21,601 bases of DNA from a virus. The translations under genes were made by a program, and so were the position numbers. The stretch covers positions 1-21,601 of IMG/VR virus record IMGVR_UViG_3300030102_007208, one strand, 5' to 3'. The notes beneath the pieces are model-generated. The model searched no databases. It was not told the origin of the DNA and worked only from the letters and a program-made list of their open reading frames with translations. Shown here piece after piece: positions 7,810 through 20,563 of the stretch. Each line of letters begins with the position of its first letter. Positions within the stretch are counted from its first letter, which is position 1.

Positions 7810-9441
7810 CTATGCTGTGCTTTGTGGTAATACTAAAGTAACACCATACTTCATGTTAAATTTATCCACATCACCTTGTGTTCTGATATAAGAAAAATCT
7901 TGTAAGGCTTCATTACTTCCGGCAATTAATCTAACAATTTCATCTGTTATTTCTTTAGGCAATCTATTTCTAATTTCTTCAAAAGATAATTGAGGTGTTT
8001 GAGCAGTTGGTACTTGACTTTGACCTACTGTTTCCGATACTTGAATTGATTCTTCCATAGGAGTACCATTAGCAAATCCTATTCTGCCACCATCTTTTTT
8101 GTTTGCAGCCAAAACGTTTGCATAAATAGCATCTATTCTTCTTATTGAAGGCATTAGTTCTGGGTAATTACTTAAGAATTCAATTTCCGCCATATATTCG
8201 TTTAATGCTCTACCATAATTTGGATCATTTTTATCCATTTTAGCAAGTTTTTTAGCACCGTCTTTAAATCTTTTTATTTGTTCTCTTGCATCACCTGGTT
8301 TCATTACTTTCTCTGCAGTAGATTTACCACCGATAGCTTTTAAAACCTCTGTTTGATTTTTATATCTAGCCGCAGCTTCTGCTTTTTCTGCATCACTGTA
8401 AGCACCTGTTGTATCAGTTATAATTCTTCTCAATTTTGCCATTTCTTTAAACTGTCTTTCACTAAAACCTTCTTTGCCGGAAGCGATTTTAGCTTTTTCT
8501 ATTTCTTTAGTTGCAGTGTAAGCTAATTTAGCAATGTCTTTTTGATCTTTTTTCTTACCAGCCATAATTCCTAATAAGGTTTTATTTAATACAGCGGCTT
8601 TGTCTGCAATAGTTCCTGGTGTACCAATGGCATCCGATAAGGCAAGAGCGACTATACCTTTATTATCCTCTTCACCTATTAATCTTTCTATCTTCTTTTT
8701 TTCAGCTTCGTAAGTATCTTCAAAAGAAGGTGCTTTTTTAGGTGTGTCATCATCCTTAGTGCCTGTTTTTTTATCGGAAACCACAGTGTCAACAATCTCT
8801 TCAATGTTAACTTCTTTAGGTCCTGCATTAGGTAAGTAACCAGCATCAGTACCAAATAATTCTTCAATTTTTTTTCTATCTTTTGTTCTTCCTAAAACTT
8901 TTGGATATTTTCCTGTTTCAGGATCCATAAATAAAGCATCAATAAAACTGATTTCTTCTCCTACTCCTCTAGCTTTTTTTCTATCTGCATCATATTCATC
9001 ATATTGAAAAAATGTTTCATCAATAGGACCATACTCTTGCATTACTTTTTTCTCTTCTAGAGTTCTAGGTCTATTCATGTAAGCTAGTGCTGCTGGTCCT
9101 ACAAAAGGTAATGACATAAGACCTGTTGTACTGGCTGATGGAATACTTAATCCACGAAGTTGAGTTAATAAACGAGAGCCTATGTTTCCTTTTTTAAGAC
9201 CGACATTACTTTTTTTAAGAGCATCTGCTTTTGAACTTATTTTATTAGAACCACCTGTAAGTTCTTCTGCCATGCTTCCACTTATAATATCAAGTACAGA
9301 AAATCCTGTTCTAGATCCTAAATTAGATCCTGCAATTATTCCACCACCAATGTTTCCACCGCCTCTAGCTTGTGTTCTAGGTGTTAGTTGACCAATACCA
9401 GTTGATCCACCTTTTTTAAATGATGGTCTTTTAAAATTCAT
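7810..9441 (-). CDS. Probable virion structural protein with DGGRIGF motif, 543 aa
   Basis: The ATG at 9441 overlaps the stop of the preceding gene in a TAATG junction. The N-terminus is basic and glycine-rich (MNFKRPSFKKGGSTGIGQLT, then ARGGGNIGGG). The middle (about 225-440) is highly charged and alpha-helical with many Lys/Glu, probably partly coiled coil. One copy of the short motif DGGRIGF lies at residues 450-456, followed by a C-terminal domain ending in a compact hydrophobic-polar pattern (MKYGVTLVLPQSTA). The same motif occurs three times in the 598-aa protein two genes upstream, which suggests a shared binding or assembly role. No enzymatic motif is visible. A virion role is inferred from the operon and shared motif. 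Confidence 0.8.
   Translation of the reverse strand: MNFKRPSFKKGGSTGIGQLTPRTQARGGGNIGGGIIAGSNLGSRTGFSVLDIISGSMAEELTGGSNKISSKADALKKSNVGLKKGNIGSRLLTQLRGLSIPSASTTGLMSLPFVGPAALAYMNRPRTLEEKKVMQEYGPIDETFFQYDEYDADRKKARGVGEEISFIDALFMDPETGKYPKVLGRTKDRKKIEELFGTDAGYLPNAGPKEVNIEEIVDTVVSDKKTGTKDDDTPKKAPSFEDTYEAEKKKIERLIGEEDNKGIVALALSDAIGTPGTIADKAAVLNKTLLGIMAGKKKDQKDIAKLAYTATKEIEKAKIASGKEGFSERQFKEMAKLRRIITDTTGAYSDAEKAEAAARYKNQTEVLKAIGGKSTAEKVMKPGDAREQIKRFKDGAKKLAKMDKNDPNYGRALNEYMAEIEFLSNYPELMPSIRRIDAIYANVLAANKKDGGRIGFANGTPMEESIQVSETVGQSQVPTAQTPQLSFEEIRNRLPKEITDEIVRLIAGSNEALQDFSYIRTQGDVDKFNMKYGVTLVLPQSTA
8074..8094 (-). repeat. DGGRIGF protein-motif copy in the 543-aa gene
   Basis: This single copy encodes DGGRIGF with KK before it and AN after it (KKDGGRIGFANG). 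It matches the three copies in the 598-aa gene at the protein level but uses different synonymous codons. Confidence 0.8.
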
Positions 9442-10478
9442 TAACCTTTGCCTCCAAAGATGCTCCCTAAACCGTATGCACTTAATCCAGCGGATAATGC
9501 TTGAGATAAAGGTCCAACACTTCCTGCACCACCCATAGTATTTGTCATGTAAGGAGCACCACTAAGCATAGAAGCTATTCCTGATCCATACATTCCTAAT
9601 CTATTAAAAGGTTCATTGTATTGTAATTGTGCTTGTTCTTGTTGAGCATCTAGTAAAGCCTGATCGTAAGCTAAATTTGATGTTCCAGCAGCACCTAAAT
9701 TTTGTATATTACTTGCAGCTAATGATGGTTGCAAAGATGCTAAGTTTGATGAAAGAGTTCCAAGACCAAGTTGTTGTTGTCCTAAATTCATTTGTTGACC
9801 GCCTAAACTCATTTGTTGACCAAAAGCTTGATTAGCTAATTGATTAGCTTGTGTAAATCCTTCTTTTAATAATCCTGCTTGAGTTGCAGCTCTGTTTCTA
9901 TCTGATGCAGATTGATATTCTGCTCTTTGTACACCTTCTCTACCACCACCAAAAGCACCTGCTGCTATTGCTTCTGCTGCAGTTCCTTGTGCTCCTTTTT
10001 TTGCTTGAATATCAAACTCTGCAAGTGTTGTATCAATAACATCTTGTTGATAAGGAGACATAAATTGTTTATAAGCTTGCGGTCCTGAAAAAGCCTGTGC
10101 CCCACTTAATGTGGTGCCTGCATCACCAAAAGTAGTAGCCGCTTGGGTTTGATATTGTGTTGCTTGATCTAAGTAGGGTTGATAACCTGCAACACCTGTA
10201 CCTTGACCAACACCTGTTACTTGTCCTTGTGGACCAAAAGTTAATTGACCAAGTCCTGCTTGTGTTGCCGCTAATTGTTGTGCTTGTTGAGTTAAAACAT
10301 TTTGATCGGCAATCTTTGGCCCAAGTTGATCTAATGTTGGTACGGTGCCAATAACATTACCATCAGCGTCTTTAATGTCAGAACCAGGAGCTTGACCTGC
10401 TAATTGTGTTAATAGATCTATATAGTTTTCTTGAGCGCTCTCTATAAATGGAGCTGGTTTAGTGTATGTCATTGACAT
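9441..10478 (-). CDS. Ala/Gln/Gly-rich virion protein, 345 aa
   Basis: The start at 10478 overlaps the previous stop as TAATG. The protein has a polar N-terminus (MSMTYTKPAPFIESAQENYI), a Gln/Ala/Gly-rich first third (QQAQQLAATQAGLGQL) and a conserved-looking core at about 135-215 (FMSPYQQDVIDTTLAEFDIQ, then AIAAGAFGGGREGVQRAEYQ). Next come short QQMSLGGQQMNLGQQQLGLG repeats around 220-245 and a glycine-rich hydrophobic C-terminus. I recall the MSPYQQ...DT...GAFGG.RE core from many phage structural proteins placed next to ejection-protein genes. No catalytic signature is present. The composition is typical of internal virion proteins that must unfold and pass through a tail. The virion assignment rests on context and recall and needs a profile search. 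Confidence 0.85.
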   Translation of the reverse strand: MSMTYTKPAPFIESAQENYIDLLTQLAGQAPGSDIKDADGNVIGTVPTLDQLGPKIADQNVLTQQAQQLAATQAGLGQLTFGPQGQVTGVGQGTGVAGYQPYLDQATQYQTQAATTFGDAGTTLSGAQAFSGPQAYKQFMSPYQQDVIDTTLAEFDIQAKKGAQGTAAEAIAAGAFGGGREGVQRAEYQSASDRNRAATQAGLLKEGFTQANQLANQAFGQQMSLGGQQMNLGQQQLGLGTLSSNLASLQPSLAASNIQNLGAAGTSNLAYDQALLDAQQEQAQLQYNEPFNRLGMYGSGIASMLSGAPYMTNTMGGAGSVGPLSQALSAGLSAYGLGSIFGGKG

Positions 10479-12274
10479 TATGCTTTACCTACTTTTTCTG
10501 CTTTTTTCATTGTATTATATAATTTTCTAGATCCTTCTTCAACACTGCCGTTACCTATACCACGTACAGCATCAGCAGTCATTACAAATTCGTTTTTAGA
10601 TAACATAGCAGGTACATCATCAGCTCGTTCTTTAATGCCAACTGGTACAAAACCACCTTCATCTCTGTAGTCTCTTTCAACTACACCAGCATTATTTTTT
10701 CTAATCTTACCTGTTGGTATATCACTTATACCACCCACTGATCTAAATGTTTTACCTGTTAATTGAAATATCTCTGCTTCAATATCAGATACATCTGCGT
10801 CAGGATCTTGTGCTAGTATACCAGCTCTTGTAATTAATAATTCTGATACTCTGTTAGCACCTTTTGATCCATCTTTGTAACCTATTCTTCCGCCGTCTTT
10901 TCGCCCTTCTAGACCCATGATGGCTATTTGTTTTAATACTTTAGCATCATCTATATTAGCTGGACTATTTGGATTTTTTAAAATACCATACAATTGTGGC
11001 ATTGTGAATGATCTATCAGGACCACCAGCACCACCCAATCTTCTAAACAAGTATGACTTTTCTGCAGAAGTAAAAGTAATACCACCGCCTGCCATCATCA
11101 TATCTTCTTCATCTTCGTCATCACCTGCTTTAACGTCAATTGACATGATACCTATTTCTGCTTCTTCTGGCTCAGATCCTTTTGAATAACCTATTCTTCC
11201 GCCGTCCGCTTTCATGTTTATACCTAATTCTTGTAACAATTTCATTCCTTCTTGAGAATCTATTTCTCCAGAATAAATCAATTCTGGTATAAGTGTTCTG
11301 TAAAAATTCATTTTAGTATCTTCATCTACAATACCATCTATGTCATTCATAAGACCATCTACAACAGCTTTTTCTTGAGAACTTCCTGGCATAACTACTA
11401 TTTCTAGATTACCTACTCTAGTGGTTCGGGGTCCGTCTGCATAACCTATTCTACCACCATCTTTTTTACCACCAAAAAAGTTTTGTAAATAACCTGCATA
11501 CTCTTCTTTTTTTTCGTCTCTTTGTGCTTGATCATATTCTTCTTCTGTTAAATCTATTCCAGCTTGAGCTGCTAAAGCTTTAGCTTCTGCGTATGAAAGT
11601 GCAAAAGTTGCTGCTCCAAGAACTGCTGCTTTGTCAAGATTGCCTTTGCTATCGTAAAACAAAGTTTTACTTCCTCTTCTTAAAAGATCTAAAGCTGCTT
11701 TTCCTTTATCTGCTGGAGACGTATTAAAACTTTTAATTGTGTTAAATGAATCCATTGCGGATCCAGGTACATTACTGACTGTAGTTTTATCAACAGTTGT
11801 AATTATATCACCTGGAAGTGCATCTACTGTTGTATCTTCAAAGAAAGTGCTTTCTCCTACTCCTTCAACAGGTTGAACTTTATCTTTAAATAAATTTTTT
11901 ATACCACCTGAACCTGTAGGCATACTAAATGCATCTTTAGCAAATGGATTTTGTAGTCCTTGAAAATCTGCTCCACCTAAATATCTAGCACCTTGACCAA
12001 GTCCATAAGTTAAAGCTCCTTTTTTTAAAGAGTCTCCAATACGTCCTGTTTGATCAAAACTACCAAGACCAGACATTCCTGCTGCAAGTAAAGGGTTAAA
12101 AGGAGCAACAAATGGCGCAGCTGTAACTGCTATTTCAGATATTTCATTAGGTATAATTTTTCTAACAAACTTTTTAAGTTTACTACCTAAACCAAATTTT
12201 TCTCTAGGGGCAACTTGCATAATGCCACCATCTGCTCGTAATTGTCTGTTCATTAAAGATCTAGATATCGCCAT
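10478..12274 (-). CDS. Probable virion protein with three DGGRIGY motifs, 598 aa
   Basis: The protein opens MAISRSLMNRQLRADGGIMQ and carries three near-identical DGGRIGY motifs at residues 272-278, 357-363 and 460-466, each followed by a short Gly-containing turn. A related RADGGIM element lies at residues 13-19. Two acidic patches occur, the stronger being GDDEDEEDMMMAGGG. The C-terminus (about 550-598) has RADDVPAMLSKNEFVMTADA, a motif I recall from the ends of many phage structural proteins. An alanine-rich hydrophobic segment lies near residues 45-75. No good ribosome-binding site precedes the ATG at 12274, and the second ATG at codon 8 is no better supported. A gap of 56 bases separates it from the upstream glycosyltransferase gene. 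The function is unknown. Operon position favours a virion component. Confidence 0.85.
   Translation of the reverse strand: MAISRSLMNRQLRADGGIMQVAPREKFGLGSKLKKFVRKIIPNEISEIAVTAAPFVAPFNPLLAAGMSGLGSFDQTGRIGDSLKKGALTYGLGQGARYLGGADFQGLQNPFAKDAFSMPTGSGGIKNLFKDKVQPVEGVGESTFFEDTTVDALPGDIITTVDKTTVSNVPGSAMDSFNTIKSFNTSPADKGKAALDLLRRGSKTLFYDSKGNLDKAAVLGAATFALSYAEAKALAAQAGIDLTEEEYDQAQRDEKKEEYAGYLQNFFGGKKDGGRIGYADGPRTTRVGNLEIVVMPGSSQEKAVVDGLMNDIDGIVDEDTKMNFYRTLIPELIYSGEIDSQEGMKLLQELGINMKADGGRIGYSKGSEPEEAEIGIMSIDVKAGDDEDEEDMMMAGGGITFTSAEKSYLFRRLGGAGGPDRSFTMPQLYGILKNPNSPANIDDAKVLKQIAIMGLEGRKDGGRIGYKDGSKGANRVSELLITRAGILAQDPDADVSDIEAEIFQLTGKTFRSVGGISDIPTGKIRKNNAGVVERDYRDEGGFVPVGIKERADDVPAMLSKNEFVMTADAVRGIGNGSVEEGSRKLYNTMKKAEKVGKA
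10877..11461 (-). repeat. Three dispersed DGGRIGY motif copies
   Basis: Copies lie at 11441-11461, 11186-11206 and 10877-10897. All encode DGGRIGY, preceded by a basic residue two or fewer positions earlier (KK, KA, RK). Two copies share the codons GGC GGA AGA for GGR while the third uses GGT GGT AGA. Identity is therefore kept in the protein rather than by recent DNA duplication alone. Spacing between copies is 85 and 103 residues. Confidence 0.85.
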
Positions 12275-18300: not shown

Positions 18301-18846
18301 ATGGATCATTTAGAAGCAATTGTTGAAATAAAAAATATAGTAGATCCTAGATTCATAAATAAAATAATACCTTTTATAAATAAAAGAGCTAAAATTAATA
18401 TGGCAGTTCAAGCCGGTGTAGATAAAACTATTAGAAATGTAAAAGGCTATCATTTAAATGATAAAACTCCTACAAATATGTTTTATTGGCAATTTATTAA
18501 AAAAGAAATAGAAAGACTTCATTTTTATTATAAAACAAAATTTTCTAAAGTTGATAATTCTCAAATTAATCAAATAGATTTATTAAAATATAAACCCGGT
18601 GGAAAGTATAATGTTCATACCGATCACTTAACAAATTCCTCTAGACATTTAAGTGTTATTATGAATTTAAATGATGAATATGAAGGAGGAGAATTAATTT
18701 TTACAGATCAAAAAGATAAAGAAATTAAAAAATTAAAACTTGGAAAAGGCTCAGTTGTATTTTTTCCTAGTAATTTTATGTATCCTCACGGTATTCAACC
18801 TATAAAGAAAGGAACAAGGTATAGTATAGTTGCATGGCTGCAGTAG
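18301..18846 (+). CDS. 2-oxoglutarate/Fe(II) oxygenase 1, prolyl-4-hydroxylase type
   Basis: The 181-aa protein has the double-stranded beta-helix core of P4H-type hydroxylases. YKPGGKYNVHTDHL (97-110) supplies the H-x-D pair H106 and D108. YEGGELIFTD (127-136) follows as in P4Hc domains. YPHGIQPIKKGTRYSIVAWL (161-180) supplies the distal metal ligand H163 and the 2-oxoglutarate-binding R173. All residues needed for catalysis are present. Such enzymes couple decarboxylation of 2-oxoglutarate to hydroxylation of a protein residue or small molecule. The gene starts two bases after the carbamoyltransferase stop, and its end overlaps the next start by 13 bases. A hydroxyl made by this enzyme could be a target of the adjacent carbamoyltransferase, which is inference only. 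Confidence 0.92.
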   Translation: MDHLEAIVEIKNIVDPRFINKIIPFINKRAKINMAVQAGVDKTIRNVKGYHLNDKTPTNMFYWQFIKKEIERLHFYYKTKFSKVDNSQINQIDLLKYKPGGKYNVHTDHLTNSSRHLSVIMNLNDEYEGGELIFTDQKDKEIKKLKLGKGSVVFFPSNFMYPHGIQPIKKGTRYSIVAWLQ

Positions 18847-19418
18847 ATTATAAATTAATAAAAAACTTTTTTTCAAAAGAAGAACTAGAAATATATCAAA
18901 AATATTGTCATAGAAAATTAGATCAAGGTATATATCTTCTTAATGAAACTAATTTTTCTCCTGCTTGGTATCAAGATGCTTTAATGACATCTTTATTAGA
19001 TGTTAAATTACCCAGGGTAGAAAAAGAATCTAACTTAAAATTATTTCCTACATATTCTTTTTGGAGATATTATGTATTTGGTGGAATGTTAAAAAAACAT
19101 TCTGATAGACCATCTTGTGAAATATCTGTCACTGCTTGTATAAAAAAAGAAGATAACTGGCCTATTGTAATCGAAGGTACTTCTTTTGAATTAGAAGAAG
19201 GTGACGCAATTTTATATGCAGGTTGTGAACAAAAACATTGGAGGCCTGGAATATATAAAGGTGAAGGTATGGCTCAAGTATTTTTACATTATGTAAATAA
19301 AGAAGGTCCGTTTACACACCATGCTTATGACAACGTTTTAAAAAATAAAGGCCAAAAGAAAACTCAAGAAGATATTCAGATATTAAAAAAGTATGACAAT
19401 GATTCAAAGAACACATAA
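18834..19418 (+). CDS. 2-oxoglutarate/Fe(II) oxygenase-like protein 2
   Basis: The 194-aa protein starts MAAVDYKLIKNFFSKEELEI, with an opening typical of phage oxygenases (KNFFSKEEL). LFPTYSFWRYYVFGGMLKKH (70-89) runs into H89-S-D91, the H-x-D pair. A hydrophobic-strand region ISVTACI follows, then LEEGDAILYAGCEQKHWRPG (120-139) with H135 as likely distal metal ligand. The usual Arg or Lys that binds 2-oxoglutarate ten or so residues later is less obvious (YKGEGMAQVFLHYV). It is only distantly similar to the other three oxygenases here. The start overlaps the previous gene by 13 bases. The substrate is unknown. Confidence 0.83.
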   Translation: MAAVDYKLIKNFFSKEELEIYQKYCHRKLDQGIYLLNETNFSPAWYQDALMTSLLDVKLPRVEKESNLKLFPTYSFWRYYVFGGMLKKHSDRPSCEISVTACIKKEDNWPIVIEGTSFELEEGDAILYAGCEQKHWRPGIYKGEGMAQVFLHYVNKEGPFTHHAYDNVLKNKGQKKTQEDIQILKKYDNDSKNT

Positions 19419-19998
19419 AATAGAAAATTTTATAGGCGTATATGATAATTACATTTTACCTCAAGAATGCGATAAAGCTATAAAAATATTTGAAGACCAA
19501 CACAAATTTAACAACACTTTAAATAGAAAAAATTTTGAAAACGCTGGGGCATTAACAAAAAAAGATAATCAATTTTTTGCGTCTCCAAATAATATGGATG
19601 TGTGGTGGGCAGAATATAAATCTATGATGATTAATTTTGACATGGCTTTTAAACATTATTCCGATACTACAGGAGCAGTAGAAGCTTATGGTGTAGAAAA
19701 TTTTCATTTTAATGTTATGAAAGTTCAAAGGACTTTACCTACAGAAGGATACCATATTTGGCATTTAGAACACGGCAAAGGATTTGATAATGAATCTAGA
19801 GCTTTTGTTTTTACTATTTATTTAAATGATGTAGAAGAAGGTGGAGAAACAGAATTTTTACATTTTTCAAAAAGAGTAAAACCTAAAACTGGTAGAATAG
19901 TTATTTGGCCTGCAGCGTTTCCTTATGTGCACAGAGGTAATCCTCCTTTATCAGGAAAAAAATATATCGTGACTTCTTGGATGAAGCTTAGACCTTAA
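19393..19998 (+). CDS. 2-oxoglutarate/Fe(II) oxygenase-like protein 3, HxE type
   Basis: The 201-aa product has NFIGVYDNYILPQECDKAIK at 12-31, then QRTLPTEGYHIWHLEHG (112-128) where the metal pair reads H124-L-E126, with Glu in place of the usual Asp. YLNDVEEGGETEFL (143-156) is the conserved core turn. WPAAFPYVHRGNPPLSGKKY (172-191) supplies the distal H180 and a Lys (189 or 190) where the 2-oxoglutarate carboxylate is normally held, as in lysine-type prolyl hydroxylases. It overlaps the previous gene by 26 bases and a second ATG lies two codons in. With the next gene it shares the NFI..YDN/KDN start, the HxE pair and the HRG-P element, suggesting an ancient tandem duplication. The acceptor is unknown. 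Confidence 0.85.
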   Translation: MTMIQRTHKIENFIGVYDNYILPQECDKAIKIFEDQHKFNNTLNRKNFENAGALTKKDNQFFASPNNMDVWWAEYKSMMINFDMAFKHYSDTTGAVEAYGVENFHFNVMKVQRTLPTEGYHIWHLEHGKGFDNESRAFVFTIYLNDVEEGGETEFLHFSKRVKPKTGRIVIWPAAFPYVHRGNPPLSGKKYIVTSWMKLRP

Positions 19999-19999
19999 A

Positions 20000-20563
20000 A
20001 TGATAAGAAATTTTATTTATGTAAAGGATAATTTTTTATCTGAAAAAGAATGTGATGAAGTAATAAAATTTTTTAAAACCTTACCTAATGATGATAAAAG
20101 TCACGATAAAGATTATCATAAAGAAGGTAAATATAATGGTGTATTTATGTTTGATAATTCACCTTATTTAAAAAACGATATTCTTTCTTTTTTAAAAGAA
20201 AGATTTCAAAAAGAATTAAATGAATATATAAAAATTTATCCAGAATTAAACTATGTCGGTCCCTTTTATTTAACTGAAATAAGATTTAAACATTGGAAAG
20301 ATGGTAGTTTTTTTGAAAATTGGCATTCCGAACATTCAATAGAAAATTCAAATAGAATTTTAAATTTTATGATTTATTTAAGCACTCATGATTGTGGAAC
20401 ACAGTTTTTAGATAAACGTATCATTAAATCTGAAAAAGGAAGATTAGCTATACTTCCTTCTTACTTTACTCATACTCATAGAGGTATGCCCTGTCCGGAA
20501 GGTAAAGATAGGTATATGTTTGGTGGTTATTTTAATTTTTCTTCTATGAAGAATAAGACGTAG
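20000..20563 (+). CDS. 2-oxoglutarate/Fe(II) oxygenase-like protein 4, HxE type
   Basis: The 187-aa protein begins MIRNFIYVKDNFLSEKECDE and has FKHWKDGSFFENWHSEHS (96-113), where H109-S-E111 is the probable metal pair, again with Glu. FMIYLSTHDCGTQFL (123-137) forms the core strand, and ILPSYFTHTHRGMPCPEGKD (151-170) plus R171 gives the distal H160 and a 2-oxoglutarate-binding Arg. It begins one base after the stop of gene 3 and ends overlapping the opposing 124-aa gene by 20 bases, tail to tail. It is the last gene of the plus-strand cassette. The C-terminal FGGYFNFSSMKNKT is short, as in compact phage enzymes. Confidence 0.83.
   Translation: MIRNFIYVKDNFLSEKECDEVIKFFKTLPNDDKSHDKDYHKEGKYNGVFMFDNSPYLKNDILSFLKERFQKELNEYIKIYPELNYVGPFYLTEIRFKHWKDGSFFENWHSEHSIENSNRILNFMIYLSTHDCGTQFLDKRIIKSEKGRLAILPSYFTHTHRGMPCPEGKDRYMFGGYFNFSSMKNKT

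Follow-up and report, generated by a model that had tools for sequence, protein, structure and literature searches.

A short Gly-Gly-Arg motif recurs on many unrelated proteins of pelagiphage-like phages and appears to separate exchangeable cassettes

The complete 21.6-kb IMG/VR record IMGVR_UViG_3300030102_007208 (21,601 nucleotides, hereafter the window) encodes two proteins on its minus strand, p598 (598 amino acids (aa), 10478-12274) and p543 (543 aa, 7810-9441), that share the seven-residue motif DGGRIG[YF]. This motif is real, general and apparently undescribed; the literature searched does not name the peptide, and no described function was found there. Comparisons of related sequences indicate that it separates exchangeable cassettes in p598-type proteins. 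Our tentative preference is for a portable signal at protein junctions, about 11 residues long and read in trans by a common factor, most likely as a processing site.

Four motif copies lie where an earlier reading of the DNA letters (the sequence-only reading) had placed them, three in p598 (11441-11461, 11186-11206, and 10877-10897, at aa 273, 358, and 461) and one in p543 (8074-8094, at aa 451). Scanning both strands of the window gave no further match, and none to the pattern read backwards. Composition-shuffled proteins yielded about 5e-5 copies per p598 and, for p543, none in 20,000 shuffles; the analytic chance expectation is 2e-5 copies for p598 and 7e-6 for p543. As had been claimed, a lysine or arginine stands 1-2 residues before the aspartate in all copies (KKD, KAD, RKD, and KKD), and all four are followed by x-x-G. 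The claim that synonymous codons differ between copies holds for two of them, which differ at several synonymous positions, but 20 of 21 bases are shared by copies 2 and 3 of p598. The further claim that the protein sequence is what is kept was borne out in a set of 363 copies, where codon identity between different loci is 0.48, little above the 0.45 expected from codon usage, which argues for selection at the protein level. Among copies inside one gene the identity is 0.66, and some within-gene copying of motif DNA exists beside the protein-level conservation.

The scan of viral proteins that the sequence-only reading had proposed was run on IMG/VR with a degenerate DNA pattern for DGGRIG[FY]xxG and returned at least 120 loci, with the motif on many unrelated proteins; the reversed peptide gave zero matches. 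A very rough total for IMG/VR is about 900 stretches (59 x 120/8), as an exact-codon subset comprised 59 loci and the same subset accounted for 8 of the first 120 sampled. Across 258 distinct contexts among the matches listed, the consensus is [K/F/A/R]-[A72/K20]-[D68]-G-G-R-[I90/V10]-G-[F/Y/L]-x-x-[G95]-[G/S/T] (numbers are percentages), in which the search pattern itself dictates positions 0 to +3, and information is at background outside about -4 to +9. The same picture came from a second set of 72 contexts, which shares few loci with the first, both having been fetched by motif-based patterns. With the motif masked, 174 proteins among the matches listed fell into 39 mutually unrelated clusters, whose proteins mostly have no known function and are probably parts of the virion, and 117 of the 120 loci listed have a G+C content (GC) of 31-41%. 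Nearly all come from low-GC phages that resemble those infecting SAR11 bacteria. Matches in 14 phage records (mostly 50-60 kb) were confined to one strand, the coding one, and a control pattern gave none; 13 of the 14 have 1-4 exact copies, frequently split between two gene loci with 25-30 kb between them. A tblastn search of INPHARED with the motif gave nothing useful, the peptide being too short for such a search. In bacterial and archaeal genomes (257 billion bases) the pattern matched 46 times, for the most part in reading frames of GC-rich genomes or in sequences like 5-formyltetrahydrofolate cyclo-ligase. A host-derived motif was rejected, as cellular matches were scattered and only one contig (L140) bore a phage-type protein. 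This 36% GC contig, binned in a Maricaulis metagenome-assembled genome, codes for a p598-type protein that has the motif twice and is probably phage DNA. In 206 genes, GGA is rare as the first glycine codon of GGR (9 of 363, compared with roughly one third in the background), which possibly averts an internal GGAGG ribosome-binding sequence. An internal Shine-Dalgarno or re-initiation role of the motif DNA was dropped, because the rarity of GGA at this codon argues against a selected GGAGG.

The motif is also kept in the relatives of both window proteins. To collect p598 homologues, peptide patterns not containing the motif were used, and 28 of 31 distinct complete ones have 2-4 copies; GGR is present in all 17 relatives of p543. 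In the aligned p598 family (28 sequences), GGRIG is invariant at copy 1 (KKDGGRIGYADG, aa 270-281, 11432-11467) and GGR at copy 3 (RKDGGRIGYKDG, aa 458-469, 10868-10903). Copy 2 (KADGGRIGYSKG, aa 355-366, 11177-11212) is the loosest, with GG in 68%, R in 93%, and the final G in 100% of sequences, and forms without GG, such as TNITRVDRKFG, occur at the loosest junction in relatives. In p543, which alignment and model depict as mostly helical, the single copy (KKDGGRIGFANG, aa 448-459, 8065-8100) sits in a linker ahead of a conserved C-terminal domain. Down to about 30% identity, all 17 relatives keep G451, G452, R453, and G459 unchanged while the flanks average 0.44 majority identity, which marks the motif as the conserved item in an otherwise variable linker. 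Information falls to background within about 3 residues of the motif; this sharp drop, together with the variable p543 linker, shows that the motif is not part of a larger domain. Neither outcome that the sequence-only reading had named as refuting it, membership in a larger domain or absence from relatives, was observed.

What the motif separates is best seen in p598-type proteins, in which constant N- and C-blocks enclose a center made of motif-bounded cassettes of 40-125 aa that are gained, lost, and reordered across the family. In p598 itself, the family-wide conserved N-block (A, aa 1-269, 11468-12274) is followed, after copy 1, by a variable cassette (aa 282-354, 11213-11431) in whose place relatives have other cassettes. 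Between copies 2 and 3 lies cassette C (aa 367-457, 10904-11176), an acidic linker plus a small segment modeled as helical (aa 403-455, block-mean predicted local distance difference test (pLDDT) 56-82); a weak match of cassette C to ETS domains (PDB, E 0.58) was taken as chance. The C-block (B, aa 470-598, 10478-10867) contains near-invariant columns and a tape-measure-like C-terminal module. When motif proteins were split at the motif and the pieces clustered into cassette classes, the p598-type proteins took the form A-[cassettes]-B, with the arrangements A-E-C-B, A-T-E-C-B, A-E-T-C-B, A-E-C-aH-B, A-W-C-bU-B, and A-C-aR-B. Class C has 42 members at varying ordinal positions. Whole cassettes that are 98-99% identical occupy different ordinal positions in the locus pairs L237/L245 (89 aa) and L006/L182 (65 aa), and the same 50-aa cassette stands ahead of cassette E in L006 and behind it in L182. 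Similarly, cassette R lies between different end blocks in the cultured phage HTVC027P and is also found in the p598-type proteins of L246 and L111. Relatives of five cassettes were not found in INPHARED; cassette bU turned up at 4 viral loci, cassette C at 47.

The edges of these insertions often coincide with the motif. Pairwise alignments with the motif masked gave 288 distinct large central insertions or deletions, of which 52% had the left edge, 60% the right edge, and 64% the acceptor site near a motif, compared with 18, 23, and 18% when placement was random. In 41% of events, versus 5% at random, both edges fell at motifs, although the events are pairwise and phylogenetically overlapping, so that the ratio is descriptive and not a p-value. 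Taken together, these comparisons indicate that the motif separates exchangeable cassettes. Such exchange at a fixed peptide boundary within one gene would be an unusual mode of phage protein evolution.

Sequences just downstream of the motif can resemble true protein starts. Open reading frame (ORF) N-termini that map inside motif proteins fell near the motif in 30 of 124 cases versus 14.9 expected; a single free-standing C-block ORF, in L027, accounts for many of the others. Of 37 distinct cases, 27 have a twin-arginine-like sequence (RRxF[LMIV]K and then a hydrophobic stretch) that begins 11-15 residues past the motif, and in an ORF of L099 such a segment is the true N-terminus (MNRRAFIQGLIGLASMPAIG). 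Segments of this kind lie in mid-protein, usually 11-15 residues past the motif, in large phage proteins such as HTVC027P gp42 (L247:23405-26083) and those of L004, L009, L022, L060, and others. In another motif family, leaders of about 45-65 aa lie ahead of the first motif. AlphaFold2 models of the window proteins are poor (mean pLDDT 45 for p598 and 52 for p543); all four copies lie in long stretches where pLDDT is under 50 (means over ten-residue blocks about 26-40), and better-predicted helices adjoin. The low values fit disordered junctions and are no proof of binding or cleavage.

The sequence-only reading had suggested a docking or assembly tag, a protease-processing site, or a nucleic-acid contact. 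Sequence alone does not separate the three, but the cassette boundaries and the mapping of N-termini make a junction or processing role somewhat likelier than pure docking. We rank processing first because it best explains the boundaries, the leaders, and the N-terminus-like downstream segments, and place docking, a passive hinge, and a nucleic-acid contact after it in that order. A common phage factor would recognize the motif on many different proteins of pelagiphage-like phages and cut at or beside GG, and cassettes, or leader and body pieces, would part into separate units as the head matures or at ejection; the signal would then correspond in function to the T4 capsid-targeting/processing sequence. 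A possible but weaker candidate is a docking short linear motif that binds a repeated virion partner (capsid inner face, portal, scaffold, or DNA), its copies giving avidity and no cleavage taking place. This would suit the 2-4 copies within one family, the many unrelated client proteins, the disordered setting, the presence on small basic head-like proteins, and the conserved arginine plus aromatic residue. However, no partner gene was linked to motif presence, and docking alone leaves the insertion boundaries and the foreign N-termini at the motif unexplained.

It is unlikely that the motif is a passive flexible hinge, i.e., a Gly-rich turn that tolerates module fusion, has no trans-acting reader, and supplies through its coding DNA a short homology for cassette recombination. 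A passive linker has no need of an invariant arginine, a near-invariant isoleucine, and a fixed glycine eight residues on across unrelated families, and the near-background codon identity between loci places selection on the protein, even though very low pLDDT between helical segments, cassette shuffling at the motif position, and the raised within-gene codon identity all agree with a hinge. Contact with phosphate or nucleic acid, in which a Gly-rich loop with its arginine would bind packaged DNA, is improbable. The glycines, the arginine, and nearby lysines are suggestive, as is the only recurrent natural cellular look-alike among the matches, xDGGRIGYGKGYYDR, which resembles the Gly-rich loop of 5-formyltetrahydrofolate cyclo-ligase, a loop with an ATP-binding role. 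Conversely, aspartate or glutamate is strongly preferred right before GG, the net charge is small, and the copies lie 60-150 residues apart, unlike clustered RGG boxes. Finally, chance or membership in a larger conserved domain is hardly credible given the shuffles, the reversed-motif control, the flanking information profile, and the family alignments.

Several observations weigh against the processing site that we favor. No protease was found in the window, profile scans of about 30 of the 87 HTVC027P proteins turned up no prohead protease, and an M15 enzyme is the one annotated peptidase encountered in that phage. The conserved stretch, about 11 residues, would extend to both sides of any cut bond and exceeds the length of known prohead-protease sites, and at one junction in some relatives GG is gone while R, V, and the final G are kept. 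The motif also occurs near the C-terminus of small basic proteins, where processing has no obvious purpose. The N-terminus events, moreover, are pairwise and not phylogenetically independent, and gene order and weak profile matches are the basis on which p598 and p543 are placed, presumably, among virion (head or ejection) proteins. If processing does take place, an extension that we consider rather doubtful is that p598-type proteins are cassette polyproteins, in which small interchangeable proteins between DGG-RIGF processing sites would be packaged and released into a SAR11-type host as evolvable infection effectors, the same signal serving on other packaged proteins.

As to genomic context, a 639-aa neighbor in the window matches the virion structural family phrog_3287 and its counterparts in the cultured pelagiphages HTVC027P (grown on Pelagibacter HTCC1062) and HTVC023P and in phage 023Pt_psg01 at 67, 59, and 47%, respectively, the best annotated relatives. 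Searches with p598 and p543 gave no Pfam match, no match to PHROG ejection proteins, and no credible PDB match; aa 539-596 of p598 weakly match the tape-measure profile phrog_5448 (E=0.00099), a homology that does not extend over most of the protein. This module (GGFVPVGIKERADDVPAMLSKNEFVMTADAV, 10478-10654) is a separate ORF in L027. HTVC027P has the motif in gp41 (KADGGRIGYSIG) and gp42, whose genes lie between those for terminase and portal, as well as in the p598 homologue gp82 (YADGGRIGFNSG). HTVC023P has no motif, and its short homologue is without cassettes. An HNH-like stretch in gp42 (LEVDHFDKVKNNPFSNLRVIPARINRAAGN) has no Pfam match, and a nuclease is a guess from its appearance. The motif or a GGRV/GGL relative is also present in small basic proteins (L034:2624-2881, L035:2788-3030, and HTVC027P gp47 and gp49), positioned past a conserved N-terminal part or close to the C-terminus. 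A 1471-aa neighbor in the window has GGRV inside a conserved stretch, which was not counted as a copy. Tandem 2OG-Fe(II) oxygenase-like genes lie beside the structural genes of the window (18301-20563), and HTVC027P and HTVC023P have similar annotated genes close to this module.

Pelagiphages belong to the most abundant ocean viruses, and the majority of their head and ejection proteins have no annotation. A short signal shared by dozens of unrelated families would help to find packaged proteins in metagenomes, would predict their domain boundaries, and would point to shared maturation or loading machinery.

Among known systems, RGG/RG boxes consist of closely spaced RGG repeats, whereas here single GGR units have cassettes between them. 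Phage ejection proteins (P22 gp7/gp20/gp16 and T7 gp14-16) are likewise poorly conserved and partly disordered, and, taking P22 gene order for the comparison, the window genes hold a place similar to that of the ejection genes, after a P22 gp10-like protein (the phrog_3287 match). Searches of PHROG, Pfam, and PDB linked neither p598 nor p543 to an ejection protein by sequence. A host enzyme may have to cleave P22 gp20 (PMC8954989). The adenovirus protease site, (M/I/L)XGG-X, occurs several times in core proteins (PMC7998265) and has a GG-X core like the motif. However, it requires M/I/L two residues before GG, where the motif has A (72%) or K (20%); conservation in the motif reaches eight residues past the first glycine, and a related protease was not found in the scans. 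In phage SPN3US, long ejection-protein segments of gp245 hold several short A-X-E prohead cleavage sites (PMC10052503). The several short-motif copies in long protein segments are alike, but the A-X-E motif is different and much shorter, and it belongs to a large myovirus with a known dedicated protease.

The closest parallel is the T4 capsid-targeting propeptide, in which about 10 residues encode both targeting and processing and are common to otherwise diverse packaged proteins (PMC9026906). Like it, the motif is a short stretch common to diverse, poorly conserved proteins of one phage (39 clusters, and two distant loci per genome in several records, HTVC027P among them). The T4 sequence is N-terminal and ends in L/I-X-E, whereas the motif is mostly internal, often multicopy, Gly-Gly-Arg based, and cassette-bounding. 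An N-terminal position is not seen in p598 or p543, some other families having the motif about 45-65 aa from the N-terminus; the L/I-X-E site is absent from the motif consensus, and a gp21-like protease was not found in the scans of the window and of about 30 HTVC027P proteins. By analogy, then, the motif, although not a member of that class, appears to be most like the T4 capsid-targeting/processing sequence in its working.

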